This document shows positions 5,987 to 46,435 of a DNA stretch of 64,000 bases, piece by piece. The notes beneath the pieces were generated by a model. The model had not been told where the DNA came from. It did no database searches and was given only the letters and a program-made list of their open reading frames with translations. The DNA lies in the NCBI GenBank assembly GCA_964036295.1, contig OZ038465.1:881615-945614 (forward strand), given 5' to 3'. Numbering within the stretch: position 1 is the first letter of the stretch; every line of letters starts with the position of its first letter. The translations under genes and the position numbers were made by a program. Source of the stretch: Plumapathes pennacea. Its lineage: Eukaryota > Cnidaria > Anthozoa > Antipatharia > Myriopathidae.

Positions 5987-8900
5987 TCAGTGCTTCTTTC
6001 CTTTCCTCCTTCTCTTCGTCTTGACAGCGTCCACCGCAACTTGTGTTTTATTGGCGACTGAATGATCTGTACCACCAAGCACAAAGAAGCAAAAGGTAAA
6101 AAAACTTTTGTACTATGGACGGATACAAAACCACGAGACCTTGGTCAAACTCAACACGAAGGGGCACCTACGAAGGTTTACGTAGAAAAAGTCTTAAACC
6201 ATTCGCTGGGTGTCGTTACCTGCTATTCCTGGAACTACCAACTTGCCAGTCTTAGTTGGGTATTTCCCGCTGAAACCAACAGGCAACAGTGGCGTCTCTA
6301 GAAGTGACGACAGCGCCGCTAATTCACCAACAAACAAACAAGAATTACTTCAGTGAATGATTCGACCCTTGTGTATACATATTTCACAGTCGTGTTTAAA
6401 TCCAATACCTTTTCGTTGTCGTAGCTTTTCCTGTTGGTCTTTCCTCTCCTTGGAGTCTCCTAAATCCTCTAATCTGAGAAAAAGTCAAGGGCATGGGGCA
6501 CTACTAGAACTACGCGGAGACTGAGGCAATCAGGAGACAACAAATACATAGAAATAACCTTAACATGGCCACTGAATACAGCACACAGTAAACAGAAGAC
6601 AGACGAGGGGGAGGAACAACAAAGAGATCTATACAACAAGGAGACAAGACCAAGAGGTCCCAAGAATCCCTACAAGAAAACTGTAAAACGAGGAGACAAA
6701 GAGATCTGTACAACGAGGAGACAACAAGATCAAGAGGTCCCAAGAATCCCTACAAGGGAACTGTACAAAGAGGAAACAAAGAAATTGAGATTCCAGAAAA
6801 GGAGAAGAAGCAAAGCACGACCAGGATACAGATCGTCGTCGACTTCAATATCCATCGCTTTAGCGGAAGCCAGGAGCCAGCTGTTCTTGTTTTGCTTACG
6901 TTTTGACCTGAAATGAAGAAGGTTCGTGGATTTCGTGTATTACCGCCGTGCAGTGCGTCTTAACCATGTGTGTGCGCATGCGTAAGAGACTATGCGTGTT
7001 TCCTTCACAGACCAACCTGAGTTCTTCTTTGTCAATCTCTTTTGCCAAAGTCAGCCTCTTTTTTATACCGGAAATAAACGCTGCATCCACTGGAAATGGT
7101 TGTAGGTCGTTTCCTGCAACGCAGAGGTTAAAGTATGAGAGTTTAAACTTATTAAATTATTTTTATTGCTATCTCTACTTACTACTTTACCTGAAACAAC
7201 AACAACAACAACAACAACAAATGATTTCTGCCCTTACCTTTGTTGAGAGTTTTCATTATTCCCTTGTAGGATTTGACGTCATCAGGACCAACCAAGACGA
7301 CACTCAAACCTTCCCGTGATGCTCGGGCCGTCCGACCACTTCGATGGATGTATAACTGACAAGACAGCAAAAACAAACAGACAAAAACAACAGCCGAAAG
7401 AACAGTTAGGTCCCATTAATTCGAAAGCACTCATGTGCCACGTGTTCTAACACCTGTTTCGTGGAGATAAGACACTGATATACAAGAAACACGAAGAGAG
7501 CTGCTTCATGTACTTTGAATGTTTCGGTCTCGGGGCCTGTCAAGCCTGAAGGTGACTTTGCGTCGCACTTTATATCCGAAACATGTTTTGCACTCTCACG
7601 AACTGAACAAAACTGGTTGTGACATCACACCGCACAGTAGACAACGCAACCGTTTCGGAAGGCAGGGTCGGGTTTTGAAAATCAAACAATGTCAAGAAAT
7701 TTCGCAAGGAAAATCTTGCTAGTCAGACACTATGTACTTGTAAGTGAACAAGGCAGAGATCCCCACCCGCTATACCCGAACGGCAGTGACGTCACCTCAC
7801 CTCCGAGTCCTTTGGCACTTGATAGTGAATCACGTGTTGGACATCCGGGATATCCAGTCCTCGGGCGGCCACGTCAGTAGCCAGTAGCAAGCCAGTCTCG
7901 CTGGTTTTGAATCTGTTGAGAATCGAGGTGAGAGCTGCATGGTGGGAAAATGTGTTTACGTCAAAGCATCTACTTAGCAACGTACTGCAAAAAAATAAAC
8001 CCATCTTCACGAACTGCACGCTAAACTCACAACCCAGCCATGCAACCCGTACACACGATACCAGCGTAGAACAAGGATGCGCGCGCACCAGTGCCTTCTA
8101 TACACATACGTGTTGCTTATTCGATGGTTACAAAAAGTAGATGATAGAAAATTGAGAAGCAAGAGGGATGCGAACCTGTCTAAGTTCTTGAGTCGCTGCC
8201 TCTGTTGCATACTGGCGTGTAAGGGCCACGGGGAGCGATCCAACAGTCTGAGAATTGACGACAACCGGCGAACGCAGTCGATTGTGTTGGCAAACACCAG
8301 AGTGCGGCCTGGGTACCGCAACAGAAAGTAGTACAGGTAGATATCCTGAAACAGACAAAACATCAGGTGAAAAAAACAAGGAAGCGGCGACAATAACGCT
8401 GCTTACACTGAAATGAATGATGACTATGACGATGATGATGATGACGATGGTGATGATGATGACAGAGATTCCGCTAGACCGGCATATGCCGGTATTTTAT
8501 CGATAAAAATCGTACTGTACCGGAAAAAAAATGAGGCTGCCGGTATGGCGTACCAGAAAACATGAAGTACAACATTTTTTTCTGACGGCTCTCCTGTCCA
8601 GATGGAGCCCACACTGAATATTCTACTCATACTACCGAAGAAATGCTCCGAAACGGTCAAAAACTCCGCGATGAGATAGATTATCTTGTGTCCAGTTCCG
8701 CTGCAGCAGAAGAAACGATTATTTTGCTTCACATATATGTTGTTCCGGTTCCAGATGGCTCCTAACCGGAAAAAAAAATTCCTACCAGTACTCTGTACTG
8801 GCTGATGGACAAGTGTAGCGGAATGGTGGTGGTCAATTACAATATAGTAGTTACAAAAATGACATTGTGGTGACGTCTAAAACAGCAATAACAAAAGATG

Positions 8901-12058: not shown

Positions 12059-21232
<9,174 letters not shown>

Positions 21233-21532: not shown

Positions 21533-22310
21533 CTAAAACCTAAAAAATCGAGGCATTCAGTACACTGACTGGCGAAGGCGGAGGGGTGGACTAGGGGAAT
21601 GTACGAGAAGGATCACACACGACACAACGAATGGATGTTCGTCATATTTATTCTACACAATATTGAAGACAAATCATGATATATATATATAAGCGGGATT
21701 TATATGTTAAAAAGAAGAAAATGAAGAACCAGTCAAGTGGGCTTCCACTTTTAGAAGAAAATAATCGATATGTACATTGTCCACAGAACTTACTAATTAA
21801 TGAATTATTGGTAATATTAATAATTCTGTCGGAGATCTTTCTACTTCTCGATGTTTCTGGGTCGGTACGTCCATTTGATCGATCATGTCTTCTCAGTGCT
21901 TCTGCAGTGTCTTCATGTTCGAAGTATTAAAATGACAACTCTTGCTACTTCTTACCACAAATCATCCGGCCTTGCATGGAAGGAAAGGTTTTCTAATAAC
22001 GGCAAACGGCACAGAGTTTGCATGTGCTTTAACACAAGCTTCGTTATTTAGTCCGAGTCTTTCACTTGAGGTCTTTATCAGTGGGTGTTAAATGAATTCT
22101 TACATGAAGTATCATCCAACGCGCGTTAGTCAAGTGAACCGGCCGAAGAAATCTTACATGTGTCCACAGTTCTCAAGTAGTTCAGTTTGCCTTGAATAGA
22201 AACTACGTTGGCTAGCTCGCAACAAGCCATTAAAATAATTAAAATTAAATTTGTTCGTATTAAATTAAAAGCATTATTACTGGTTCAAGCAGTCTCCATT
22301 GTTACCACCA
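21533..22310. other. Intergenic between RTCB and the arginine-rich gene
   Basis: The two genes converge here (tail to tail). The stretch is AT-rich, with an ATATATATAT run near 21680, and should hold the 3' untranslated region of the minus-strand gene. No exon or repeat family was recognised. Confidence 0.5.
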
Positions 22311-25300
22311 TTATGGGATGTTATAAGTGCCTGGGGCCTGGGTCGGAGTCGCCTTATTCGCTTTCTTCTTGCCGCTGTCAACCGGTTGCTGAGGCAACAT
22401 TTCTTGTTCAGCGGTAGTTGGTCGTGCGCCAGGCACTGACGAGGCGTTGAGCGCATCCTTGCTTGTCGCAGCCTTGTCTCGTTGCCCTAAAATAGATAAC
22501 TACAGTTTAGGCTCTCTTGGGAAGCAGAAAAAGTGTTCGTAACTGGAACACTGTCCGCCTACGAGAATGTGTAAATACACAGTTTGACTGAGCTAGAGTT
22601 TAAACGGGGTAAGGGCGTCCGTAAGTAGAGCTGTCCACTGCTTCACAAGCAAAACAAACAGGTTTGTATGATTTTTGGAATCCGTCAGTGTCACTTACTT
22701 TTTCCCCTTCGTGCTCTTCGTCGTCGTCCTCTTCCTAGCCGTCGTCCTCGTAGTCGTCTTCTTCGTAGCCGTCGTCGTCGTCGTCGTCCTCTTCGTAGCC
22801 GTCGCCTTCTTCCTAGCCGTCGTCCTCGTAGTCGTCGTCTTCGTAACCGTCGTCGTCGTCGTCGTCCTCTTCGTAGCCGTCGCCTTCTTCCTAGCCGTCG
22901 TCCTCGTAGTCGTCGTCTTCGTAGCCGTCGCCTTCTTCCTAGCCGTCGTTGTCGTCGTCCTCTTCGTAGTCGTCGTCGTCCTCCTCTTCCTCTTCGTAGT
23001 CGTCCTCTTCCCAACCGTCGTCTTCTTCTTAGCCGTCGTCCTCTTCTTAGCCGTCGTCCTCTTCCTAGCCGTCGTCCTCTTAGTCGTCGTCCACCTCGTC
23101 CTATTCCTAGCCATCGACGTCGTCGTAGCCATCTGAGAATGCTTCGACCTGCATTTACAATTTCCATGTGTGTTTATGTGAGTTGGTGACATATTGTGAA
23201 ACCGGTTAATTTGCAATGATAGAATTTGTCGCCGATTTGTTCAAGAAAACACGAGTGCCATTTCCATGTGGGATTTCTAAATGCCCGCCTGTGTCCAAGT
23301 TGAATTTGAAGCGTTTGTAGTTCTCCAGGTTTTCAATTTGATTCTCAAACTCACGTTTGACAAATGTAGTGCTAGATAGCTGGGGAAAATGCATATGCAG
23401 TACCCGAAATCAGGTACAAACCACATAACTGGGAAAACTTCTCAAAATATTTGTGGCACGAAAGCTTTCACACTTGTAATGAAGGTGTAAAAAAATTTAT
23501 GCCTATATCAGTTTAGTTAAGTTTCGTTAAGATAAACTATTCCTATGTAATCCAACATATTCCTTATTGTATAGAGTTTGGGTATCACTGCTAGAATGAT
23601 GAACTTTCGTCTTGGAGGCCACAAGTTTTGTAAGTTAAATTCTAACCTCGACGTTCTCTTCTTCGTCGACTGGTTATCCAATATACTCTTGTTCCCCTGA
23701 TAACGATCCTGCGATATTTTCCGTTGCGACTAACCCAGATTTTGTGATGATGCATAAGAACATGCCTCCATCGCCCGTTGTTGAAAATTCCCGTTGAGTG
23801 ATTCTTTATCCAGTTTAACGGAACGATCTTGGGTCTTTGCCCGAATTTGCGCTTCACTACAAAGCTGCCCCACCTAGTGAAGACTCTTCTGAAGCGGCCG
23901 TGTATTTTCATGACAAATCTGGGTCTTCGCAGTCGTTCTAATCAAGACAAAAGGAAAAGATTGATTGTTAATCTGTGCATGGTGTACGTGTGCATACTTG
24001 TGCCGTTGTGAATTTTTAATGAGATTGCGGGATTTGTTCGTTCTGTGCCCTTACGTCCTCTTCGTCTCTTTTGCCTGCGTAGCCGTCTTTGCGTCCTCCA
24101 TCTTATCTTCCTCCATCTGATCCTCCTCCATCTGTTCTTCCTCCGTCTTTCCCTCCTTCGTCTCCTCATAGTGAACATTCTCAACAGTCGACCTAATGTA
24201 AGAAAAAAAATGGCGCGAGAAACAGCATTATAGATACAGCACAGTTTTGAGAATGTGGGATTTGTTCGTTCTGCCTCCTTACGTCGTCTTTGTGTTCGTC
24301 TCGCTGATCTTCGCCGCCATCTTAAATACTTTGCCAACTTCCTCCATGTTTTGAACCCAGTTCTTCGTCGACCTAATAATACAAAAAAACAATTGCGTAG
24401 AAAGCAGTACAAATACTGTACAGTTCAGTCAGTTCATGTGCCTGGTTCATAGTTCCGCTGAGTTGAAAGCCAAGGGTGGTACTTTTAGCGCAGGTTTCAA
24501 GACATTTAATTAAAGAAGTTCAAAAAAATTATTTTTAAACTTTTGTGCTCTCACAGGAAATGCCAACCATCAAGCTAAAAAGAGTGAATCATTAAGATGT
24601 GGACTACATTAATCTTGCCCCCGAGCCCTGCGAAGTTACTAATTAAGATCTCTATTTTGTCTTTGAATGTTCGTCAGTCAGTCGTCGGGCAACTAACACT
24701 TCATGTAAAGACTCACGGAAGACTCTTGCCCTGCGATGTTGACTTTTTCGCCACCACCTCAAACGCCTTCGTCGTCTCCTTCGGCCGGAAATTTTTCCTC
24801 TTCGTTGTGCCTTTGATTTAGTTTTTTGCATCGCTCTCTGCACGTATCTCCTGGACATACCCCGACTGACAGCAATTAGTCGTCTTCGTTGTTCTTCTCT
24901 TGCTTTTTCTGATTTTGTTTGGGCCTAACATCAAAAAAAAAAGAAAATCAATATCCTATTGCCAGCCGGTGAATGCACGAAAAATATGCTGCTCATACCA
25001 TGATTGAATCAGGCTTCGCAGATCATTGTAAACACATAAGATTTTAATTCGATATAATTAGAGTCGCCATACTTTTGTTCTGGGTTGTTTTTCATGTGTT
25101 TCCATAGGTTCCGGTTCATCAGTAGCTTCTTCTTCCGGTTCATGTCCTTTGATAAGACTTTCAGCCTCAAACAGATCTGATGAATTAACTCGATTTGGAC
25201 TTGTGAAGTCAACTGATGCCTCTTCAGAAAGGGAGCTTTTATTTTCAAAGCTAGCAACCAAAACTACTCCATAACTGCACGAAAAGAGACAAAAGGAATG

Positions 25301-26309
25301 AAAGAACAATCATTAATACTACCGAGTTGAGGGGGAGTGGGGAAGGTGGTTGTGCTTGAAATCACAAGTTGCGCTTAAACGGCGTTGGGCTGAGTTTTTT
25401 TTTTATAAATTTATAGTTCATGAGAATCAAAGCTATTTGAAATTCAAGTTTCGCGGAAGTCAAATGCTGTCGTGTCTAAAATTTTTGTTCACTGACCACA
25501 CTGACTCGATGATCGCAGAAAACACATTTATTTTTAGGTTTTGATTTTTGACCATCAGCAGATCAATGAAACAAGTTTCGATTAATAGCAATTCGACGAG
25601 CAAGTCATTCTGGAAGCAAGTTTACCCGAACAGCTTTCTTTTTTTTTTTTTTTTTTTTTTTCTAGTGCAGTCTTTGAGACAAAGAAAGGTAATGATATGA
25701 CAGTATATACATGTTGACTGGAGGGTATAGTATGCGAAGCGTTCTATCGAAACCCGTGAAAACCTAACAATATCTAAAAATACGCCATTGAAGTTAAGTA
25801 AAATGAAACAGTTCTGAATACTGGTTGTCGAGCAGGTACTCAGCACAAACACCAGGACAATTCAACATTTACGTTGCGATCTTATCATGTTATTTTAGTG
25901 AAACTATTTCAATGTTTTGTTGAAGTATAGTACATTTTAAGATTGTTGTCCACTTATATAAATACTTTTGAAAGAGTTTGGTCAACCTGTGCCCCCATGG
26001 CAGGTGCAGGGAGAGAGGACGATTTAATTAACAAGAGTTTCGTGTCAGAATTTATAGGAATTACCACACCGCACTGAAGCCAGTTCATAAAGGAAAACTG
26101 TAAAATACGCAACTAGTCGGTCACGAATGCACAGACAGAAACAGAATGATAGGTGACGAGAGAGGGAAAGAAATTTAACAAAAGGAAAATAACTAAAATG
26201 AAGTTGTTGAAACCTGCGGAGTGCTCTTTGGAGAGAACCATTTCTAACAACTTGGGCAGTGTGAACACGGCAGTACTTACAAGAGTAGCATGGAAAATCG
26301 TAACCACAT
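22311..26309 (-). CDS. Unrecognised secreted, cysteine-free, arginine-rich protein (8 exons)
   Basis: I do not recognise this gene. Exons 5' to 3': 26309-26281, 25274-25073, 24924-24717, 24372-24283, 24192-24055, 23937-23647, 23148-22699, 22486-22311. All eight splice in one frame to 527 residues, with phase 1 at every intron from the third onward. Residues 1-18 (MWLRFSMLLFYGVVLVAS) form a typical signal peptide. Residues 19-77 are acidic, with Asn-X-Ser sites and a Glu/Pro stretch. Residues about 78-469 are extremely basic: RWWRKSQHRRARVF, RWRRIRWRKIRW, a middle part with NNGRWRHVLMHHHKIWV (about residue 285), then about 150 residues of GRRLRGRRLGRGRRLRRGRR type. The tail of about 58 residues is Ala/Pro/Gln/Thr-rich and ends APGTYNIP. 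No Cys is present. A secreted antimicrobial precursor, an extracellular-matrix or biomineral-binding protein, or a gamete basic protein are all possible; none is shown. Confidence 0.75.
22784..22932. repeat. 78-bp tandem duplication inside the arginine-rich exon 7
   Basis: Two adjacent copies start at about 22784 and 22862. Each begins GTCGTCCTCTTCGTAGCCGT and contains TTCTTCCTAGCCGTCGTCC. Seventy-eight is divisible by three, so the Arg-rich frame is kept. The rest of exon 7 is made of shorter, less regular GTCGTC/CTCTTC repeats, pointing to growth by slippage. Confidence 0.8.
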
Positions 26310-27341: not shown

Positions 27342-28103
27342 TTCGTAGAGTGGTACTCAGATAACAGGCTGACAATAAATGCCAAGAAGACTAAACTGAT
27401 GCTGACTGGCAGTAAAGCAAAGCTGTCTGCATTTGAAAATTTTGAGCTGCAATCAGATGGAACACAAATCGACCGTGTGCAGTCTTTTAAGTATCTTGGT
27501 GTTACAACGGACATGAAATGGAGCTGGAGGCCGCACGTCAGAAATCTGATGAGGAAACTGGGTCGTCGACTCTCTGTTTTTAATCGTGTTATTCATATGC
27601 TTGACAACCCAACGCGCATTGCATTTTATAATTCCTTAGTTTTACAACACCTAGACTATGCGGACACCCTATGGGGAGACCAGCCTGGCTTGAAATCAGA
27701 AATGGAGCAATAACAAGCCTTCCAAAACAGATTCACCAAGAGCATCCAAGGAGGCAAAACATCGTCCACAGAAGCTCTAAAATCTCTCAAATGGGTCCCA
27801 CTGGCTGGGCGACGTTTTGGCCATCGTTGTGTTGCCGTGCAAGATGCAATCAAAGGAGATATCCCAGAGCATTTTGAGAGCTATCGATCAACGCTACGTG
27901 ACTCACATGGACACAACACCAGAAATGGATACTTGCCAAGGCTACCTCAACCCAAAACTGAATGGGTAAAGAGACTGACATTTTACAGATGCACGAATGA
28001 CTGGGTGTCCTTGCCGGGCAATTTAAAGAAACCAATTAAGTGCAAGATTTTCAAAAAGAAACTTAAAAACTTTTTAATAGATCAATACCTAGGGAATTTG
28101 TAA
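27342..28103 (+). pseudogene. Non-LTR retrotransposon (LINE) reverse-transcriptase C-terminal fragment, broken
   Basis: This frame covers 254 codons including one internal TAA at 27711-27713. It contains WYSDNRLTINAKKTKLMLTG, FKYLGVTTDMKWSW, RIAFYNSLVLQHLDYADTLW and, after the stop, PLAGRRFGHRCVAVQDAI and ends near FLIDQYLGNL. These are the thumb-side motifs of Jockey/CR1-like LINE reverse transcriptases. The catalytic palm (the YADD region) is missing, so the copy is 5'-truncated. With the internal stop it cannot make a complete enzyme. Confidence 0.85.
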
Positions 28104-28801: not shown

Positions 28802-31800
28802 TAAATCTTTCAAAGGTGTGATGTTTTAATTAGTGGATGATTTGCTGTAATTTCTCACAACGCGCGGGCTTAAAGTTTAAAGAAAACTATGCAAAAACCG
28901 TCGACATAGTCCCAGGAACATTTTCTGAAAGCTTCATGCGATTCTGAGATGGTCGAAAAATGACCGAATTTTCACAAAATACTAAGGCTATAGCACAGGG
29001 TTTTTTTGCCGATTTTGGCCAAAAATTGAAAACTCTTCAAACTCTTAGGAAACCTTTCTGGGACTATAAGAAGACTTTCTGCAATACATTTACTTTATGC
29101 ATCTTCATCCGTTGGCGAGATATGGCTGCAAAACCGCTTAAAACTTTGAAAGGTGTGATGTTTTAATTAGTCGACGACTTCCTGTAATTTCTCACGAAGC
29201 GCAGTCTTAAAGTTTACAAAAACTATGCAAAAACCGTCGGCATAGTCCCAGGAACATTTTCTGAAAGTTTCATGCGATTCTGAGATGGTCGAAAAATAAC
29301 CTGATTTTCAAAAAATACTAAGGCTATGGCACAGGATTTTTTGCCGATTTTAGCCAAAAACTTGAAAGCTCTTGAAACTCTTAGGAAGCCTTCCTGGGAC
29401 TATAAGAAGACTTTCTGCAATACATTTTCCTTATGTCTCTTCCTCCGTTGGCGAGATATACCTGCAAAACCGCTTAAAACTTTGAAAGGTGTGATGTTTT
29501 AATTAGTCGACAATTTGCTGTAATTTCTCACGAATCGCAGGCTTAAAGTTTACAAAAACTCTGCAAAAACCGTCGACATAGTCCCAGTAACATTTCCTCA
29601 AAGTTTCATGCGATTCTGAGATGGTCGAAAAATGACCGGATTTTCACAAAATACTAAGGCTATAGTACAGGGTTTTTGCCGATTTTGGCCAAAAATTGAA
29701 AACTCTTGAAACTCTTAGGAAACCTTCCTGGGACTATAGGAAGACTTTCTGCAAAAAATTTTCTTTATGTATCTTCCTCCTTTGGCGAGATATAGCTGCA
29801 AAACAGCTTAAAACATTGAAAGGGGTGATGTTTAAATTAGTCGACGATTTGCTCTAATTTTTCACGAAGCGCAAGCTTAAAGTTTACAAAAAATATGCAA
29901 AAACCGTCGGCATGGTCCCAGGAACATTTCCTGAAAGTTTCATGCGATTCTGAGATGGTCAAAAAATGACCGGATTTTCAAAATAGGACAGGGTTTTTTG
30001 CCGATTTTGGCCAAAAATTGAAAACTCTTGAAACTCTTAGGAAACCTTCCTGTGATTATAAGAAGACTTCCTTTAATACATTTTCTTTATGTATCTTCCT
30101 CCGTTGGCGAGATATACCTGCAAAACCGCTTAAAACTTTGAAAGGTGTGATGTTTTAATTAGTCGACGATTTGCTGTAATTTCTCACGAATCGCAGTCTT
30201 AAAGTTTACAAAAAATATGCAAAAACCGTCGACATAGTCCCAGGAACATTTCCTAAAAGTTTCAAGCGATTCTGAGATGGTCGAAAAATGACCGGATTTT
30301 CACAAAATACTAAGGCTATAGCACAGGGTTTTTTGCCGATTTTGGCCAAAAAATTGAAAACTCTTGAAACTCTTAGGAAGCCTTCCTGGGACTATAAGAA
30401 GACTTTCTGCTATACATTTTCTTCGTGTATCTTCCTCCGTTGGCGGGATTATGGCTGCAAAACCGCTTAAAACTTTGAAAGGTGTGATGTTTTAATTAGT
30501 CGACAATTTGCTGTAATTTCTCACGAATCGCAGTCTTAAAGTTTACAAAAACTATGCAAAAGCCGTCGGCATGGTCCCAGGAACATTTCCTGAAAGTTTC
30601 ATGCCATTCTGAGATGGTCGAAAAATGACCGGATTTTCACAAAATGCTAAGGCTATAGCACAGGGTTTTTTGCCTATTTTGGCCAAAAATTGAAAACTCT
30701 TGAAACTCTTAGGAAGCCTTCCTGGGACTATAAGAAGACTTTCTGCAATACATTTTCTTCGTGTATCTTCCTCCGTTGGCGGGATTATGGCTGCAAAACC
30801 GCTTAAAACTTTGAAATGTGTGAAGTTTTAATTAGTCGACAATTTGCTCTAATTTCTCACGAATCGCAGGCTTAAAGTTTACAAAAACTATGCAAAAACC
30901 GTCGGCATGGTCCCAGGAACATTTCCTGAAAGTTTCATGCGATTCTGAGATGGTCGAAAAATGACCGGATTTTCACAAAATTCTAAGGCTATAGCACAGG
31001 GTTTTTTTGCCGATTTTGGCCAAAAATTGAAAACTCTTGAAACTCTTAGGAAACCTCCCTGGGACTATAAGAAGACTTTCCGCTATACATTTTCTTTATG
31101 TATCTTTCTCCTTTGGCAAGATATAGCTGCAAAACCGCTTAAAACTTTGAAAGGTGTGATGTTTTAATTAGTCGACAATTTGCTCTAATTTCTCACGAAT
31201 CGCAGGCTTAAAGTTTACAAAAACTATGCAAAAACCGTCGGCGTGGTCCCAGGAACATTTCCTGAAAGTTTCATGCGATTCTGAGATGGTCGAAAAATGA
31301 CCGGATTTTCACAAAATTCTAAGGCTATAGCACAGGGTTTTTTGCCAATTTTGGCCAAAAATTGAAAACTCTTGAAACTCTTAGGAAATCTTCCTGGGAC
31401 TATAAGAAGACTTTCTGCTATACATTTTCTTTATGTATCTTTCTCCTTTGGCAAGATATAGCTGCAAAACCGCTTAAAACTTTGAAAGGTGTGATGTTTT
31501 AATTAGTCGACAATTTGCTGTAATTTCTCACGAATCGCAGTCTTAAAGTTTACAAAAACTATGCAAAAACCGTCGGCGTGGTCCCAGGAACATTTCCTGA
31601 AAGTTTCATGCGATTCTGAGATGGTCGAAAAATGACCGGATTTTCACAAAATTCTAAGGCTATAGCACAGGGTTTTTTGCCAATTTTGGCCAAAAATTGA
31701 AAACTCTTGAAACTCTTAGGAAATCTTCCTGGGACTATAAGAAGACTTTCTGCTATACATTTTCTTTATGTATCTTTCTCCTTTGGCAAGATATAGCTGC

Positions 31801-34800
31801 AAAACCGCTTAAAACTTTGAAAGATGTGATGTTTTAATTAGTCGACAATTTGCTCTAATTTCTCACGAATCGCAGGCTTAAAGTTTACAAAAACTATGCA
31901 AAAACCGTCGGCATGGTCCCAGTAACATTTCCTGAAAGTTTCATCCGATTCTGAGATGGTCGAAAAATGACCAGATTTTCACAAAATACTAAGGCTATAG
32001 CACAGGGTTTTTTGCCGATTTTGGCCAAAAATTGAAAACTCTTGAAACTCTTAGCAAGCCTTTCTAGGATTATAAGAAGACTTTATGCAATACATTTTCT
32101 TTATTTATCTTTCTCCTTTGGCGAGATATAGCTGCAAAAGCGCTTAAAACTTTGAAAGGTGTGATGTTTTAATTAGTCGACGATTTGTTGTAATTTCTCA
32201 CGAATCGCAGTCTTAAAGTTTACAAAAAATATGCAAAAACCGTCGGCATAGTCCCAGGAACATTTCCTGAAAGTTTCATGCGATTCTGAGATGGTCGAAA
32301 AATGACCGGATTTTCACAAAATACTAGGGCTATAGCACAGGGTTTTTTTGCCGATTTTGGCCAAAAATTGAAAACTCTTGAAACTCTTAGGAAACCTTCC
32401 TGGGATTATAAGAAAACTTCCTTTAATACATTTTCTTTATGTATCTTCATCCGTTGGCGAGATATAACTGCAAAACCGCTTAAAACTTTGAAAGGTGTGA
32501 TGTTTTAATTAGTCGACAATTTGCTCTAATTTCTCACGAAGCGAAGGCTTAAAGTTTACAAAAACTATGCAAAAACCGTCGGCATGGTCCCAGGAACATT
32601 TCCTGAAAGTTTCAAGCGATTCTGAGATGGTCGAGAAATGACCGGATTTTCACAAAATACTAAGGCTATAGCACAGGGTTTTTTACTGATTTTGGCCAAA
32701 AATTGAAAACTCTTGAAACTCTTAGGAAGCCTTCCTGGGACTATAAGAAGACTTTCTGCAATACATTTTCTTCGTGTATCTTCCTCCGTTGGCGGGATTA
32801 TGGCTGCAAAACCGCTTAAAACTTTGAAAGATATGAAGTTTTAATTAGTCGACGATTTGCTGTAATTTCTCACGAATCGCAGGCTTAAAGTTTACAAAAA
32901 ATATGCAAAAACCGTCGGCATGGTCCCAGGAACATTTCCTGAAAGTTTCATGCGATTCTGAGATGGTCGAAAAATGACCTGATTTTCACAAAATACTAAG
33001 GCTATAGCACAGGGTTTTTTGCCGATTTTGGCCAAAAATTGAAAACTCTTGAAACTCTTAGGAAACCTTCCTGGGATTATAAGAAGACTTCCTTTAATAC
33101 ATTTTCTTTATGTATCTTCATCCGTTGGCGAGATATAGCTGCAAAACCGCTTAAAACTTTGAAAGGTGTGATGTTTTAATTAGTCGACGATTTGCTGTAA
33201 TTTCTCACGAATTGCAGTCTTAAAGTTTACAAAAACTATGCAAAAACCGTCGGCATAGTCCCAGTAACATTTCCTGAAAGTTTCATGTGATTCTGAGATG
33301 GTCGAAAAATGACCGGATTTTCACAAAATACTAAGGCTATAGCACAGGGATTTTTGCCGATTTTGGCCAAAAATTGAAAACTCTTGAAACTCTTAGGAAA
33401 CCTTCCTGGGACTATAGAAAGACTTTCTGCAATACATTTTCTTTATGTATCTTTCTCCTTTGGCGAGATATAGCTGCAAAACCGACTAAAACTTTGAAAG
33501 GTGTGATGTTTTAATTAGTCGACGATTTGCTGTAATTTCTCACGAATCGCAGGCTTAAAGTTTACAAAAACTATGCAAAAACCGTCGGCGTGGTCCCAGG
33601 AACATTTCCTGAAAGTTTCATGCGATTCTGAGATGGTCGAAAAATGACCGGATTTTCACAAAATTCTAAGGCTATAGCACAGGGTTTTTTGCCAATTTTG
33701 GCCAAAAATTGAAAACTCTTGAAACTCTTAGGAAACCTTCCTGGGACTATAAGAAGACTTTCTGCTATACATTTTCTTTATGTATCTTTCTCCTTTGGCA
33801 AGATATAGCTGCAAAACCGCTTAAAACTTTGAAAGGTGTGATGTTTTAATTAGTCGACAATTTGCTCTAATTTCTCACGAATCGCAAGCTTAAAGTTTAC
33901 AAAAACTATGCAAAAGCCGTCCGCATGGTCCCAGGAACATTTCCTGAAAGTTTCAAGCGATTCTGAGATGGTCGAAAAATGACCGGTTTTTCACAAAATA
34001 CTAAGGCTATAGCACAGGGTTTTTTGCCGATTTTGGCCAAAAATTGAAAACTCTTGAAACTCTTAGGAAACCTTCCTGGGACTATAAGTTGACTTTCTGC
34101 TACACATTTTCTTCGTGTATCTTCCTCCGTTGGCGGTATTATGGCTGCAAAACCGCTTAAAACTTTGAAAGGTGTGATGTTTTAATTAATCGACAATTTG
34201 CTGTAATTTCTCACGAATCGAAGTCTTAAAGTTTACAAAAACTATGCAAAAGCCGTCGGCATGGTCCCAGGAACATTTCCTGAAAGTTTCATGCCATTCT
34301 GAGATGGTCGAAAAATGACCGGATTTTCACAAAATACTAAGGCTATAGCACAGGGTTTTTTTGCCGATTTTGACCAAAAATTGAAAACTCTTGAAACTCT
34401 TAGGAAACTTTCCTGGGATTATAAGAAGACTTTGTGCAATACATTTTCTTTATGTATCTTCCTCCGTTGGCGGGATGTGGCTGCAAAACCGCTTAAAACT
34501 TTGAAAGGTGTGATGTTTTAATTAATCGACAATTTGCTGTAATTTCTCACGAATCGAAGTCTTAAAGTTTACAAAAACTATGCAAAAGCCGTCGCCATGG
34601 TCCCAGGAACATTTCCTGAAAGTTTCATGCCATTCTGAGATGGTCGAAAAATGACCGGATTTTCACAAAATACTAAGGCTATAGCACAGGGTTTTTTTGC
34701 CGATTTTGACCAAAAATTGAAAACTCTTGAAACTCTTAGGAAACTTTCCTGGGATTATAAGAAGACTTTGTGCAATACATTTTCTTTATGTATCTTCCTC

Positions 34801-37800
34801 CGTTGGCGGGATGTGGCTGCAAAACCGCTTAAAACTTTGAAAGGTGTGATGTTTTAATTAGTCGACAATTTGCTCTAATTTCTCACGAATCGCAGGCTTA
34901 AAGTTTACAAAAACTATGCAAAAACCGTCGGCTGGTCCCAGGAACATTTCCTGAAAGTTTCATGCAACTCTGAGATGGTCGAAAAATGACCGGATTTTCA
35001 CAAAATACTAAGGCTATAGCACAGGGTTTTTTTGCCGATTTTGACCAAAAATTGAAAACTCTTGAAACTCTTAGGAAACTTTCCTGGGATTATAAGAAGA
35101 CTTTGTGCAATACATTTTCTTTATGTATCTTCCTCCGTTGGCGGGATGTGGCTGCAAAACCGCTTAAAACTTTGAAAGGTGTGATGTTTTAATTAGTCGA
35201 CAATTTGCTCTAACTTCTCACGAATCGCAGGCTTAAAGTTTACAAAAACTATGCAAAAACCGTCGGCTGGTCCCAGGAACATTTCCTGAAAGTTTCATGC
35301 AATTCTGAGATGGTCGAAAAATGACCGGATTTTCACAAAATACTAAGGCTATAGCACAGGGTTTTTTGCCGATTTTGGCCAAAAATTGAAAACTCTTGAA
35401 ACTCTTAGGAAACCTTCCTGGGATTATAAGAAGACTTCCTTTAATACATTTTCTTTATGTATCTTCCTCCTTTGGCGAGATACAGCTGCAAAACAGCTTA
35501 AAACTTTGAAAGGTGTGATGTTTTATTTAGTCGACAATTTGCTCTAATTTCTCACGAATCGCAGTCTTAAAGTTTACAAAAAATATGCAAAAACCGTCGG
35601 CATAGTCCCAGGAACATTTCCTGAAAGTTTCATGCGATTCTGAGATGGTCGAAAAATGACCGGATTTTCACAAAATACTAGGGCTATAGCACAGGGTTTT
35701 TTTGCCGATTTTGGCCAAAAATTGAAAACTCTTGAAACTCTCAGGAAACCTTCCTGGGATTATAAGAAGACTTCCTTTAATACATTTTCTTTATGTATCT
35801 TCATCCGTTGGCGAGAGATAGCTGCAAAACCGCTTAAAACTTTGAAAGGTGTGATGTTTTAATTAGTCGACGATTTGCTGTAATTTCTCACGAAGCGAAG
35901 GCTTAAAGTTTACAAAAACTATGCAAAAACCGTCGGCATGGTCCCAGGAACATTTCTTGAAAGTTTCATGCGATTCTGAGATCGTCGAAAAATGACCAGA
36001 TTTTCACAAAATACTAAGGCTATAGCACAGGGTTTTTTGCCGATTTTGGCCAAAAATTGAAAACTCTTGAAACTCTTAGGAAACCTTCCTGGGACTATAG
36101 AAAGACTTTCTGCAATACATTTTCTTTATGTATCTTCCTCCATTGGCGGGATTATGGCTGCAAAACCGCTTAAAACTTTGAAAGGTGTGATGTTTTAATT
36201 AATCGACAATTTGCTGTAATTTCTCACGAATCGAAGTCTTAAAGTTTACAAAAAACTATGCAAAAGCCGTCGGCATGGTCCCAGGAACATTTCCTGAAAG
36301 TTTCATGCCATTCTGAGATGGTCGAAAAATGACCGGATTTTCACAAAATACTAAGGCTATAGCACAGGGTTTTTTTGCCGATTTTGACCAAAAGTTGAAA
36401 ACTCTTGAAACTCTTAGGAAACTTTCCTGGGATTATAAGAAGACTTTCTGCAATACATTTTCTTTATGTATCTTCCTCCGTTGGCGGGATGTGGCTGCAA
36501 AACCGCTTAAAACTTTGAAAGGTGTGATGTTTTAATTAGTCGACAATTTGCTCTAATTTCTCACGAATCGCAGTCTTAAAGTTTACAAAAACTATGCAAA
36601 AACCGTCGGCATAGTCCCAGGAACATTTCCTGAAAGTTTCATCCGATTCTGAGATGGTCGAAAAATGACCGGATTTTCACAAAATACTAAGGCTATAGCA
36701 CAGGGTTTTTTGCCGATTTTGGCCAAAAATTGAAAACTCTTGAAACTCTTAGGAAGCCTTCCTATGATTATAAGAAGACTTTCTGCAATACATTTTCTTT
36801 ATGTATCTTCCTCCGTTGGCGAGATATAGCTGCAAAACATCTTAAAACTTTGAAAGGTGTGATGTTTTAATTAGTCGACGATTTGCTCTAATTTCTCACG
36901 AATCGCAGTCTTAAAGTTTACAAAAAATATGCAAAAACCGTCGGCATAGCCCCAGGAACATTATCTGAAAGTTTCAAGCGATTCTGAGATGGTCGAAAAA
37001 TGACCTGATTTTCACAAAATACTAAGGCTATAGCACAGGGTTTTTTGCCGATTTTGGCCAAAAATTGAAAACTCTTGAAACTCTTAGGAAACCTTCCTGG
37101 GACTATAGAAAGACTTTCTGCAATACATTTTCTTTATGTATCTTCCTCCATTGGCGGGATTATGGCTGCAAAACCGCTTAAAACTTTGAAAGGTGTGATG
37201 TTTTAATTAATCGACAATTTGCTGTAATTTCTCACGAATCGAAGTCTTAAAGTTTACAAAAAACTATGCAAAAGCCGTCGGCATGGTCCCAGGAACATTT
37301 CCTGAAAGTTTCATGCCATTCTGAGATGGTCGAAAAATGACCGGATTTTCACAAAATACTAAGGCTATAGCACAGGGTTTTTTTGCCGATTTTGACCAAA
37401 AATTGAAAACTCTTGAAACTCTTAGGAAACTTTCCTGGGATTATAAGAAGACTTTCTGCAATACATTTTCTTTATGTATCTTCCTCCGTTGGCGGGATGT
37501 GGCTGCAAAACCGCTTAAAACTTTGAAAGGTGTAATGTTTTAATTAGTCGACAATTTGCTCTAATTTCTCACGAATCGCAGTCTTAAAGTTTACAAAAAC
37601 TATGCAAAAACCGTCGGCATAGTCCCAGGAACATTTCCTGAAAGTTTCATGCGATTCTGAGATGGTCGAAAAATGACCAGATTTTCACAAAATACTAAGG
37701 CTATAGCACAGGGTTTTTTGCCGATTTTGGCCAAAAATTGAAAACTCTTGAAACTCTTAGGAAGCCTTCCTATGATTATAAGAAGACTTTCTGCAATACA

Positions 37801-38440
37801 TTTTCTTTATGTATCTTCCTCCGTTGGCGAGATATAGCTGCAAAACAGCTTAAAACTTTGAAAGGTGTGATGTTTTAATTAGTCGACGATTTGCTCTAAT
37901 TTCTCACGAATCGCAGGCTTAAAGTTTACAAAAACTATGCAAAAACCGTCGGCATAGCCCCAGGAACATTATCTGAAAGTTTCATGCGATTCTGAGATGG
38001 TCGAAAAATGACCGGATTTTCACAAAATACTAAGGCTATAGCACAGGGTTTTTTGCCGATTTTGGCCAAAAATTGAAAACCCTTGAAACTCTTAGGAAAC
38101 CTTCCTAGGATTATAAGAAGACTTTCTGCAATACATTTTCTTTATGTATCTTTCTCCTTTGGCGAGATATAGCTGCAAAACATCTTAAAACATTGAAAGG
38201 TGTGATGTTTTAATTAGTCGACAATTTGCTGTAATTTCTCAGGAAGCGCAAGCTTAAAGTTTACAAAAACTACGCAAAAACCGTCGGCATGGTCCCAGGA
38301 ACATTTCCTGAAAGTTTCAAGCGATTCTGAGATGGTCGAAAAATGACCGGATTTTCACAAAATACTAAGGCTATAGCCTAGGGTTTTTTGCCGATTTTGG
38401 CCAAAAACTGAAAACTCTTGAAACTTTTAGGTAACTTTGA
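28802..38440. repeat. Satellite array, about 29 copies of a ~335-bp monomer
   Basis: Head-to-tail copies repeat with a spacing of 335-336 bases. Landmarks in each copy are TTTTAATTAGTCGAC, TAAAGTTTACAAAAACTATG, GTCCCAGGAACATTTCCTGA, CGATTCTGAGATGGTCGAAA and GCAAAACCGCTTAAAACTTT. The A/T-rich monomer carries a 68-codon open frame that is intact in at least ten copies (for example 28960, 30961, 34315, 35656, 37337) and broken by indels in the others. The array shows local homogenisation and three-monomer higher-order repeats. It may be a heterochromatic or centromere-like satellite; that is inference. Confidence 0.95.
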
Positions 38441-39665
38441 AATGTGGATCTTTTAATTAGTTTTAATTAGTTCGAATATAAGAAGACTTTTTGCAATACA
38501 TTTTGCCTGATCTTTTCTCAACCGTTGTTATATAGCAGCAAAACCACGTTAAATCTTAGGCCGCTTTGTTCGAAAAGTGCGATATTTCAGTCGATGATTT
38601 CCTCTAGTTTCTCTCGGCCCGTTGGATAAAACATCATAAATTTCACACCAAAACCTTTGTCATACTCCCAGGAACGTTTCCTGAAAATTTCATGCGATTC
38701 TGATATGTGGCAAAAAATAGCCATTTTTTCAAGAAATGTCAAGCCTATAGGCCCATGCTTTTTGCCAAAAATAGCCGAATTTCAACAAAAATTTAAAACT
38801 CCTGAAACTTTCAGGAAACTTTCCTGGGACAACGGCGAGACTTTTTGCAATACACTTCCCTTATTTCATTTGAGCAGTTGACGAGATATAACAGCAAAAC
38901 CACGTAAGCCCTAAGGCTTCCTTGTTCAAAAAGTACGATATTTTAGTCGATGATTTGCTCTAATTCCTCGCGATCCGTTCGATAAAGCATCACAAATTTT
39001 ATACCAAAAGTTTTGCCATTCGCCCAGGAACATTTCCTGAAAATTTCATTCGATTCTGGGATTTAGTCGAAAATAGCCATTTTTTCAAAAATGTGAAGAC
39101 TATAACCCATGCTTGTTGCCAAAAATGGCCGAATTTGAGCAAAAATTAAAAACTCTTGAAACTTTCAGGAAACCTTCCTGGGATTATGATGAGACTTTTT
39201 GCAATACATTTGCCTTCTGTTTATTCAGCCGTTGACGAGATATAGAAGCAAAATCACGTAAACCCTGAGGTTCCCTTGTTGAGAAAGTACGATATTCTAG
39301 TCGATTATTTGCTCTAATTTCTCGCGACCCGTTTGATAAAATATCACTATTTTCACACTAAAACCTTTGTCATACTTACAAGAACATTTCCTGAAAATTT
39401 CATGAGATTCTGAGATGTGACTAAAAATAGCCACTTTTTCAAGAAGTGTCAAGCCTATAGCCCATGCTTGTTGCCAAAAATGGCCGATTTTGAGCAAAAA
39501 TTTAAAACTCTTGAAATTTTTAGGAAACCTTCCTGGGACGAGGCTTTTTGCTATACATTTGCCTTATTTTATTTCAGCCACTAACGAGAAATAACAGCAA
39601 AACCAGGTTAAACCTGAGGCTTCTTTGTTCGAAAAGTGCGATATTTTAGTCGATGATTACAAATT
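38441..39665. repeat. Diverged satellite edge, ~352-bp monomers
   Basis: Three to four degenerate copies follow the main array. Their spacing is about 352 bases, as measured between TCGATGATTT landmarks at about 38593, 38947, 39301 and 39650. They share the layout of the main monomer (CCCAGGAACATTTCCTGAAA, GAAACTTTCAGGAAACCTTC, GACGAGATATA), but many positions differ. This is a separate subfamily or the aged border of the array. Confidence 0.85.
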
Positions 39666-40285: not shown

Positions 40286-41567
40286 TCATGGCTCACAAGC
40301 AAAAGGCAGCACCTTGACATCGCCTCGGATGCCAACGCGAAAATCTGCCCATTTTTTGACATTCCCAACGGAGCCATGGCACGAACGCGACATCTTTCTA
40401 ATCTCATCCAGTGAAAGAACCCGATTCCAGACATTCAGGTCGGTCAGCTCACCAACGTAGCACTGGTTTGCGTCGAAACCGCCACCGACTGTGTCTTGCT
40501 CTTGCCCAATGACGAGTGTCCCTGCAGAACTGATCCGGTAACCCCTTTCAAAACTAGGGCCAGAGGCTTGATGCGCACCGTCTCTGTAGAATTTATACTC
40601 GCCCTTCACGTTCTCCCAACTTGTACAAATGTGGTGCCAGGAACCGTCTTCAGTAGGATGAAACGAGACATTTCTGTGGAATTGAAGAACTATAATCAAA
40701 ATTTTGGGATCGTGTGTGTGTGTGTGGACCGGCGGAATGCTGGGTTCATGTGCATTAAAATTAATCACGCAGCAAGGAACAATCAAATCGTATCACAAGT
40801 CAAAAAAAAAAAAGGAAGGTCAATCAAACAAAGAGTGATGTGTTCATGACCCAGAGAAATTTACCTCCTCCTCGTAATCGGTATAGAATTTCAGTTGATG
40901 TTCGTACTAGTTGGTTCATCATCGCTATAGTACATAACCAATAGCTTTGCTTTTGTACCTTCTTTCACTGCCGATGTACAATCGCATTTTGCTGGGATCG
41001 GTAATCAGTAAGATTTCGTTGTTATTTGCAGAACTCGTGGCGTAGCTGAACACTAGAGCAACATCGCCTATAATTATATAAGAAACTTCAACAGCTTTAC
41101 TAGTTCGTACCTGTAGCTGCTGCCGCCGATCTGCAATCGCAGTTTGCCGCCGGCAATGGTAATCAGTAAGATTTCGTTGCCGTTTCTTGAAGAACTCGTG
41201 GCGTAGCTGAACACAGTTCTATCGGTACTGGTCTCCGTTGCTCTCACGCGGTAACACACAGTGAAGGCGTTGCTTACTGACAGTCCGTGGTGAACGACAT
41301 AGTCCTTGATCCCCTTTTCGGTGAAATAGAGATCGAATGAAGGAACTGGGAAAATGATGCGTGAAACAGTTAGCAAGAGCTGAGAACCTGACAATGGCAC
41401 CATCCCACCCACCCCTTCTAACCACTAACTGCTGCTCGCTGTTCATGTCCTGCAAGATTCTAGAGGGATTTGCTGTAAGTTACCTGTGTGCTGGCTCCCA
41501 GGGCAACGGGTTCTTGGCAAAAGACAAAAAGAACAGAAAAAACCCAAAGCTTCCGGGTGCTGTCCAT
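40286..41567 (-). CDS. Secreted single-domain pentraxin (3 exons)
   Basis: Pentraxins are secreted, calcium-dependent pattern-recognition lectins of innate immunity (family knowledge). Exons: 41567-41484 (84 nt), 41379-41111, 40673-40286, joining in frame to 246 residues. Exon 1 encodes a signal peptide with a hydrophobic core, LWVFSVLFVFC. Exon 2 gives the first half (VPSFDLYF, VFSYATSSSRNGNEILLI). Exon 3 contains HHICTSWENVKG, close to the pentraxin signature HxCx[ST]Wx[ST], then GQEQDTVGGGFDANQCYVGE, the calcium-site region, and WADFRVGIRGDVKVLPFACEP at the end. The exon 2 acceptor is uncertain: 41379 keeps the frame, but a stronger-looking acceptor near 41350 does not. Length is close to the C-reactive protein family (about 220-230). 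Confidence 0.88.
40959..41067 (-). pseudogene. Partial duplicate of pentraxin exon 2
   Basis: This 109-base stretch, inside the intron between exons 2 and 3, repeats the last part of exon 2. It reads LVFSYATSSANNNEILLI compared with TVFSYATSSSRNGNEILLI. It is open, ends at a GT donor in the same phase as exon 2, and is preceded by an ATAG acceptor-like site. Its upstream half is missing and its entry phase does not match exon 1. A relic of tandem exon duplication is most likely; an alternative exon is possible. Confidence 0.7.
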
Positions 41568-44034: not shown

Positions 44035-46435
44035 ATGGAGAACTCCACATGGTTACATGACAAGGAAAGCAGCATCAAAACAGAAACTTTACTCGACGTC
44101 GCTGTTCGATACATTTCGGTCTATACTGTCGCAGCAATCGGAGCTTTTCTGGTCACAAAGGAGTTCCTGATAGGTGAGCGTTCCTTGTTGATTCAGCCAT
44201 GCAAATCAAGAAACAACACTGTTTCACTCTTCATCACACTATCGTTCATGACCTCTGTGTCTTAGTAATACACTAAATTGCTTCTCCAGTGTGCATAACG
44301 TGTATTCTCTACAACAGCCAACTGACCACGGTTTCAGAGTTGCTATATATTTTAAATATAATTTTTCAAATTAGTTATTTCATAAATACAGCGGCCCATT
44401 TTCTAAGGCAAACAAAACGGAGTCGGTTTCCTTTAGATGCATTTTCTTCTCCTTTATCCTGTGGTGCCGTTTGCTGATAAGCCATATTTAAACAACAATA
44501 ATTAGTGAACTAGACATTACCACACTGTCCTAATAGCCTCAATCCCTAACATCCTGTTGTTTTTCTATGGCGTATGCAGTCCTCAACACAAACAGATTTG
44601 AGACAGTGCTGAAAAACCCGGATTTTCGTGGGCTCAGTGATTGACTTGCAGCCTTTCTTACGGCTGAGACATGCTCTTTCGGCCAATCAAACATATTCGC
44701 GCTAAAAAAAGTTGTATACTGGTTCCGAAGTTGTAATTTTAATCTTCGGTCCACAAAATGCAACAAGGAACAATAGGCATGAGTAGATAGTGATTTGAAA
44801 TCACGTTGTAAACACATGTCATATCTCTTTTATTGCATAGAAAATACTTTTCTATATAAAGTTCTAAATTATTTTGCTCAAAATGAACAGATGACAGAGT
44901 GTAACGGAGTTAAACGGGGTGAAAGATGACCTGGCACGGTTGATCTGGCAAATCGACACGACAAAATCCTAATGTTTGTAAACGACTGAACTGTGATGCA
45001 CACCTGCTATGAATAAACATGTGCTGCCATGCGTTCTTTTCGGTGGCTTTGTGTCAGCACCGACTTTTTCGTTCCGTCTGTGAAAACGTTTCTCAGTGGG
45101 AACTATTATATGATAATCCAATGATAATATCTGTTTGATTATTACACTGAATCTACTATTATAAATCTTTAATTCTGTAAGGTCGTCAGACCCATGATGA
45201 CGTTTGTATATATTTTTTCTATTTACAAATCCTGTTATTGCCTGACGCCATTACTTTTACTTTATTCTCGTCAAATGCATGTGAAGCGTGCTTGCCGGGT
45301 TTAAATACTTCCATTCTCAGAACAAGAATTTACCTTACTAATGGGATTTCTTCTAATTTTGAATCATTTTCTTAATTTTGCAGGAGAGTTCGCCGTTTGC
45401 CAACCAATCAACAAAGCGATACGAGAGAACCTTTCATACAGCCCAACACAAGCCCGCTACGACGCAGCGTTCTGTACGGCTAGCATGCTCGACTTCACAG
45501 AAAACCTCCAGGTGGCCTCGACGACTGATCATGGAGCAATTCCTGGAATTACGATTCTTGGAATAAAGGGAAAAGCCGCTCCAGCCCTTCATGAGAAATT
45601 CATCCCATTCGCATTTCTGATCCAAGCCGCGGTGTTCTATTTACCAACACTGGTGTGGAAACATCGTGGAGCCGAGTTGCTCCGCGCGGCGGTCAGGTAC
45701 ATTGCAGCCACTTCCTGGAAAATCTGCCAGAGAGAGGCAGCCTCGACTCCATCACAAACCAACACACCCAGACGAGGCTCGTTAGAACGTCACTTGGACG
45801 AACTGGAGAATGACGTGAACATGTGGCTGTCTCAAAGATCTCTAGTGAATGTTTATGTTTTAAAGTTGATGTTCACAGCACTTTTGCTTGTGGCTGCAAT
45901 ATGCCTCTATCTCCTCTATACTCCTCTCAACATATTCAGCTTTAGAGGCATGTTCGTTTGTCATGTGGATAGACAGGCCCTGGTTCGATGCCTCATTCCT
46001 GACACGCATCTGTTCAGACTGTTCTGGATTGTCAATCTTGTCTTGGTTGATCTTTGTCTCGTATTTACAACGTTTCAGCTGCTCAACTTGGCCTTCTGCG
46101 CACAGAGGCGTCGCAATTTCTTCTTTTTCAGATATCTCGGCATATCCGATAGGAAACATTCTAAAGTCGCCACAGACGCGCATCTCATATCACAGTTTTG
46201 TGATGAGAATCTGAGCATCATGGCGCCTGAAGCCCTCAGGAGCACTTTACCAACCAACGAGTTGTACTGCTCTTCTCTCATCGCGCTGGGAAGTTCGGGA
46301 GGTTCCTCTCTCAGATCCCTTGCGTACGATACTGCACCTCAAACACCCCAAAGGATGTCTGAAGAAAAACAAAACCTGCAGGTTCCCACAACAAGCACAG
46401 TTCAACCACCACCAAAACAAGACGACAAGATATGA
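44035..46435 (+). CDS. Four-TM large-pore channel-like protein, pannexin/LRRC8 superfamily type (2 exons)
   Basis: Exons 44035-44173 and 45384-46435 join in phase 1 to 396 residues. Four hydrophobic segments are visible: about residues 23-43, 119-138, 203-226 and 258-282. The two loops between TM1-TM2 and TM3-TM4 carry two cysteines each (near 52 and 77, and near 239 and 249), the hallmark arrangement of pannexin/innexin-type channels. The pattern FVCHVDRQALVRCLIPDTHL before TM4 and the segment after TM4 (HLISQFCDENLSIMAPEAL) also resemble the pore and linker regions of LRRC8 anion channels. There are no leucine-rich repeats; instead a Ser/Pro/Gln-rich cytoplasmic tail ends the protein. Such proteins form plasma-membrane hexamers or larger rings passing ions or small metabolites. 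Family placement is by eye and moderately sure. Confidence 0.72.

Follow-up and report, generated by a model that had tools for sequence, protein, structure and literature searches.

A predicted gene for a secreted, cysteine-free, arginine-rich protein in Plumapathes pennacea, and its giant relative

Introduction

Is a long chain of arginine-rich exons in an animal genome a gene, or an accident of composition? The question is raised by a stretch of 64,000 nucleotides from the antipatharian Plumapathes pennacea (assembly GCA_964036295.1, contig OZ038465.1, positions 881,615 to 945,614), referred to here as the window. An earlier reading of the letters alone, the original prediction, had joined eight minus-strand exons into a gene for a secreted protein of no recognised family. 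We conclude that the window gene is very probably real and protein-coding. Judged by the parts that the two loci have in common, it is a compact, old paralogue of a giant arginine-rich locus on another contig. The exact chain of eight exons is likely to be correct, with less assurance than the existence of the gene.

The gene model and its product

When the eight minus-strand exons are rebuilt from the raw sequence, with ends at 26309 and 22311, the exact 527-residue product is regained from 1584 coding nucleotides. All seven introns are GT-AG, and exons 2 to 8 are entered in phases 2, 0, 1, 1, 1, 1 and 1. The parts of the model are as follows.

Exon 1, 26309-26281, minus strand: 29 nucleotides with the donor gtaagt; MWLRFSMLL, the signal peptide's first half
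Exon 2, 25274-25073, minus strand: the remaining signal peptide (25274-25250) and the acidic segment, residues 19-77
Exon 3, 24924-24717, minus strand: Arg-rich, with RRRRRRRLRWWRK; the least certain exon
Exon 4, 24372-24283, minus strand: Arg/Trp-rich, phase 1-1
Exon 5, 24192-24055, minus strand: RWRRIRWRKIRW, phase 1-1; probable partial duplicate of the donor stretch at exon 4
Exon 6, 23937-23647, minus strand: phase 1-1; probable degenerate copy of the Trp/Arg-repeat domain of the relative on contig C1
Exon 7, 23148-22699, minus strand: poly-Arg/Leu/Gly, phase 1-1
Exon 8, 22486-22311, minus strand: near-neutral tail, ending TPTQAPGTYNIP, then stop
3' untranslated region (UTR) and 3' flank, 21634..22310, minus strand: block-wise similarity to the C1 locus
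Poly(A) signal AATAAA, 21647..21652, minus strand: within the block AGAATAAATATGACGAACAT, identical in the C1 locus

The product contains 183 Arg, 31 Lys, 20 Glu, 6 Asp, 15 Trp and 0 Cys, with a calculated isoelectric point of 12.0 and a net charge of +188. Residues 1-18, MWLRFSMLLFYGVVLVAS, resemble a signal peptide when judged by eye. They are followed by a segment with a net charge of -10 (residues 19-77), a basic region with +192 (residues 78-468, with 177 Arg among 391 residues) and a tail with +5 (residues 469-527). Trp adjoins Arg or Lys in 11 of 15 cases, and there are 55 matches to the furin-type site RX[KR]R. Thus, the cysteine-free, arginine-rich product of the original prediction, and its acidic-then-basic layout, are both recovered.

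The exons are not equally secure. The weakest point of the gene model is exon 3. Exons 4 and 5 have in common a 46-nucleotide stretch at their donors (85% identical, mostly intronic, about 11 nucleotides exonic), so this stretch was duplicated. Exon 7 is built on a minisatellite (22715-23130, fitted periods 18, 30, 48 and 78 bp) and is open in two minus-strand frames, the second being a Thr/Lys frame. At a lag of 26, codon changes between minisatellite copies are synonymous in 27 cases vs nonsynonymous in 48, and the differences among copies do not show selection for Arg. Support for exon 7 rests on phase and frame.

A relative with matching ends on another contig

How can such a model be tested? 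Open stretches can be joined by luck when splice sites are freely chosen, and a chain of this kind could arise in that way; the real test of the gene model is therefore a paralogue. The window's own genome was searched (290 Mb in 24 contigs; the window lies on contig C4 and the relative on contig C1). With residues 1-336 as the query there were eight matches: six to the window gene itself, one weak (E-value, E, 5.85) and one on C1. Indeed, C1:6198317-6198538 matches exon 2 with 61% identity (E 1.5e-15), and the underlying DNA is 78% identical. About 3.5 kb upstream of this C1 exon 2 is a C1 exon 1 of 29 nucleotides, with the same phase, a gtaagt donor and the peptide MWVQYFLLL. The predicted division of the signal peptide across two exons is thus conserved in the relative, together with the length of the first exon, and so is the acidic exon.

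The other end of the gene is matched as well. With exon 8 as the query, only two places in the genome matched: exon 8 itself and a C1 terminal exon (E 5.2e-7), which follows about 72 kb further down the same strand and ends TPTQAPGTYDIL in place of the TPTQAPGTYNIP of the window gene. Over exons 1 and 2, 47 of 75 aligned residues are identical to C1, with a ratio of nonsynonymous to synonymous substitution rates (dN/dS) of 0.52; over the terminal exon the figures are 28 of 57 and 0.71. The exon 2 alignment has three gaps, and the frame is maintained through all of them. The 3' UTR resembles C1 in blocks, among them the identical block with the poly(A) signal. Within a 124-kb stretch of C1, a single place matches exons 1-2 and a single place matches exon 8 with E below 1. 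Because C1 matches the opening exons, the terminal exon and the 3' end of the gene, these are real gene parts, as the original prediction of a gene had implied.

The window gene therefore has two of the sets of features that mark the C1 family: exons 1-2, carrying the signal peptide and acidic segment with the same split, and the terminal exon followed by the poly(A) block and the blocks of 3' UTR. Arg-rich exons in phase 1 occur at both loci as well.

Two other accounts of the model were considered and rejected. One is a chance gene model; both ends, the exon 1-2 boundary, the 3' UTR blocks and the poly(A) block are common to C1. The other is an artefact of low complexity and nothing more; low complexity is not a property of exons 1, 2 and 8, which have matches beyond the window.

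The giant arginine-rich locus

What lies between the matching ends on C1?

Giant Arg-rich locus, C1:6202068-6125800, minus strand: about 76 kb, dozens of Arg-rich phase-1 exons

Exons were sought in C1 6203000-6124500 by dynamic programming, using splice matrices and an amino-acid composition trained on the window gene only. On the minus strand in phase 1, 62 exons were chosen, 52 of them large, with 19,317 coding bases in the large ones and a score of 5469. The controls on the same strand scored 579 in phase 0 (10 large exons) and 2148 in phase 2 (27 large exons). For the opposite strand the scores were 87, 38 and 175, and for reversed letters 0, 98 and 162. A companion run, with matrices also trained on C1 exons, chose 58 exons, of which 44 are strong (score above 20, inside the locus) and 14, weak or outlying, were left out. 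The 44 strong exons encode 5,460 residues, with 2,584 Arg (47%), 409 Lys, 1 Asp, 2 Glu and 26 Cys, percentages that lean high because Arg is rewarded and acids are penalised by the scoring; exons of ordinary composition fall outside the count. The longest run of Arg within one exon is 31, and Trp adjoins Arg or Lys in 204 of 218 cases.

These exons carry a repeat. In 19 aligned C1 repeat domains, aromatic residues stand at a spacing of 18 with a frequency 2.4-fold over expectation; spacings of 4, 14, 22 and 36 are also raised, 1.9-fold. Seven repeat exons were compared (of 11 extracted), and all 21 pairwise dN/dS values fall between 0.23 and 0.72. The same strand of C1 also encodes recognisable domains. 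For example, Pfam matches include FN2 (3.3e-16), VWA (2.7e-37) and an F5/8C-like domain (1.2e-17; two stretches joined by eye), along with sub-threshold Tudor-like/DUF4537 matches.

Does the middle of the window gene belong to this repeat family? A profile was built from 17 C1 repeat exons, and each middle exon was compared with 1000 shuffles of itself. Exon 6 scored 27.7 bits against a shuffle mean of 16.5, a score that 3 of the 1000 shuffles reach (5 of 1000 for its trimmed core). Exons 3, 4 and 5 are not above their shuffles on this profile, the score being reached by 826, 967 and 149 of 1000, respectively. The window gene differs from the C1 locus in having five middle exons rather than dozens, and one probable degenerate copy of the Trp/Arg repeat domain. 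The FN2, F5/8C, VWA and Tudor-like domains present at C1 are all absent from it. Because the matrix domains (FN2, F5/8C and VWA) are lacking, the window gene is placed as a paralogue and not as a full-length member.

The C1 locus also bears on the proposal that the window protein is a charge-masked precursor. This idea is rejected. A segment of -10 is far too small for a basic region of +192 and masks nothing, and at C1 a similarly short acidic segment stands before a net charge of about +2990.

Comparison with known proteins

The searches gave no known family for the protein, in line with the original prediction. Pfam returned no family for the whole window protein or for exon 6, and for the 19 C1 repeat domains it returned two stray weak matches only, one member each. 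The PDB, searched by sequence and by profile, held no relative, the only two matches being to kinases at chance level (E 1.5 and 2). No relative was found in viral contigs (two of eight scans) or in prokaryotic genomes (one scan), and Rfam and tRNA searches found nothing. The arginine-rich family thus appears categorically new relative to the Pfam, PDB, viral and prokaryotic libraries searched, a scope that excludes animal proteomes. A literature search that covered most papers by their listings and the openings of their abstracts gave no description of such a protein, and neither did a search of listings on Arg-rich skeletal matrix proteins. In the main text of a Nematostella matrisome paper (PMC12549020), the word arginine occurs 0 times.

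There are partial likenesses to several known systems. Arminins are short precursors in which an acidic pro-region balances a basic peptide. The window protein, with 527 residues, a net charge of +188, -10 set against +192 and no Cys, does not have this layout, and the two are set apart here by description only. What the window protein has in common with Hydra arminins and with other bipartite antimicrobial precursors (PMC10945409) is a signal peptide and a biased distribution of charge.

Protamines and other sperm nuclear basic proteins are likewise very high in Arg, and are not known to carry a signal peptide. The window protein differs from them in its signal-like N-terminus (by eye, and conserved in the paralogue), its paralogue of secreted type, its Trp-Arg repeats and its multi-exon, phase-1 structure. 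Modular animal matrix proteins with FN2, F5/8C and VWA have the same domains as those on the C1 strand. C1 differs from them in the poly-Arg and Trp/Arg repeat exons between its domains, and the window gene in having no Pfam domain.

Taken together, the window gene and the C1 locus could represent a new class of animal secreted proteins, a suggestion that we make tentatively. Such proteins would be giant and nearly half arginine, almost without Asp or Glu outside ordinary domains. They would carry a Trp/Arg repeat of 18 residues, and Arg runs up to 31 long within a single exon.

What might the protein do?

The reading that we favour, with a confidence just short of even, is that the window gene is a genuine paralogue of the C1 giant and that its product, a secreted polycation, condenses acidic matrix or mucus. 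The product would enter the secretory pathway, lose its signal peptide and be released as an extended, positively charged chain that contains Trp-Arg pairs. Once outside the cell, this chain may bind and condense polyanions, such as sulfated glycosaminoglycans, acidic mucins or other acidic polymers, through charge and cation-pi contacts. As the C1 paralogue has FN2, F5/8C and VWA domains, the window protein is placed with modular extracellular proteins. The giant C1 product would be a scaffold, since FN2, VWA and F5/8C are kinds of module that often bind collagen or glycans. The window protein, without those modules, may be a soluble or accessory polycation. We speculate that the acidic segment aids targeting or export. 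Three roles had been proposed at the outset: an antimicrobial precursor, a binder of acidic matrix or mineral, and a gamete coat protein. All three are retained. The second is favoured, and the paralogy with C1 moves the probable role closer to the extracellular matrix or mucus.

Several observations weigh against this reading. In front of the ATG the window gene resembles C1 little past the last few dozen bases, and the donor of exon 2 is in phase 0 in the window vs phase 1 in the C1 relative. Exon 3 has no match in the C1 relative by profile (the 826 of 1000 shuffles given above), and a dispersed repeat of about 110 bp (about 24732-24602), on which 40 of the 44 DNA matches listed fall, contains its donor. 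Selection on the window copy appears only modestly purifying. The 527-residue product has 0 Pfam domains, and hence none of the C1 domains that suggest a matrix role. Its secretion is predicted from the N-terminus, judged by eye, and with 55 furin-type sites it may not survive the Golgi intact. On C1, the phase-2 control is not empty (27 large exons), and the chain as a single gene is putative.

Could the basic region be a store of small peptides? If the product were an antimicrobial polyprotein, cleavage of the basic region by furin-like proteases, at its many RX[KR]R sites, would yield short Trp/Arg peptides that act on microbes, either killing or shaping them. The 55 furin-type matches suit this account, and RWWRK and RWRRIRWRKIRW resemble known Trp/Arg antimicrobial peptides. 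Hydra antimicrobial peptides derive from larger precursors, most with bipartite charge, according to PMC10945409. The same report attributes a complex cysteine pattern to most Hydra peptides, however, whereas the window protein has 0 Cys. Cleavage at all sites would leave fragments of a few residues, and the C1 relative bears matrix-type domains. Moreover, the C1 repeat exons, about 110 residues long, are under purifying selection as whole units, unlike spacer-separated peptide precursors. We consider the polyprotein unlikely. A role in the skeleton matrix or the egg coat, as a mineral- or gamete-coat protein, would agree with a secreted-type polycation that has a matrix-type relative, but the listings on Arg-rich skeletal matrix proteins contained none, and we regard this role as quite improbable.

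It is also conceivable that the window gene makes no functional protein, being a partial copy of the giant locus that has kept its ends and open frames while decaying. Exon 6 is probably a degenerate repeat, exon 7 is minisatellite-like, and a dispersed repeat supplies the donor of exon 3. The dN/dS values of 0.52-0.71 are mildly below 1, and a fragment like a long interspersed nuclear element (LINE) and a 335-bp satellite array lie nearby. A neutral copy at a synonymous divergence (dS) of about 0.4-0.6 would, however, be expected to contain stops or broken splice sites, and here eight exons are open and seven introns canonical. The frame is held across the three exon 2 gaps, and the poly(A) block is conserved. 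A decaying duplicate thus seems doubtful to us.

What would follow if a secreted polycation is the right reading? An animal would then make and export proteins of several thousand residues, with about 47% Arg in the repeat exons. Poly-Arg slows or stalls ribosomes. Such proteins should stall ribosomes, be hard to translocate and fall prey to furin, and their existence would imply that the secretory pathway handles them in some special way. To proteomics based on trypsin they would be nearly invisible because the fragments are too short, and this may explain the lack of reports. The family would offer a natural model for the translation, export and protection from proteases of polycations, and a candidate building block of matrix or mucus overlooked by trypsin proteomics. 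Adhesive or antimicrobial materials could draw on its Trp/Arg repeat sequences. Of the two members, the giant at C1 is the more remarkable, and the small window gene is the experimentally tractable one.

Spread of the repeat and surroundings of the gene

With one C1 repeat exon as the query, the genome gave at least 35 matches with E no higher than 0.01; those listed all fall within 6.128-6.230 Mb of C1. Part of this range is occupied by a gene on the opposite (plus) strand, from C1:6208301 to beyond 6231769, which carries a related Arg-rich repeat in at least 28 copies (28 of the 29 matches listed). Its exons fit phase 2 best, with a score of 599 vs 334 and 315. This plus-strand gene runs into a long stretch of N and then an open Asn/Thr-rich tail.

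The Tudor-like/DUF4537 exon of C1 has 17 matches in the genome, that is, 16 further open stretches, some of them in tandem. These relatives are found at C1:330152-349549 and C1:42081313-42083223, and on C2, C3, C4, C8, C11 and others.

Close to the window gene, a tail fragment of a LINE-like reverse transcriptase (a weak RVT_1 match) lies on the plus strand at window 27342-28103, about 1 kb upstream of exon 1. Beyond it, at window 28802-39658, are a 335-bp satellite array (28.7 copies, 93% matches) and then a 354-bp array. Elsewhere in the window are exons of ordinary genes.

Fe-ADH exon, window 3473-3934
Helicase C exon, window 8007-8402; just under the cut-off
RtcB exon, window 16512-16934
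Pentaxin exon, window 40286-40792
Innexin-like exon, window 45305-46435; just under the cut-off

Within the window gene itself, intron 7 contains a repeat (window 22639-22515) that is also present near the C1 locus.

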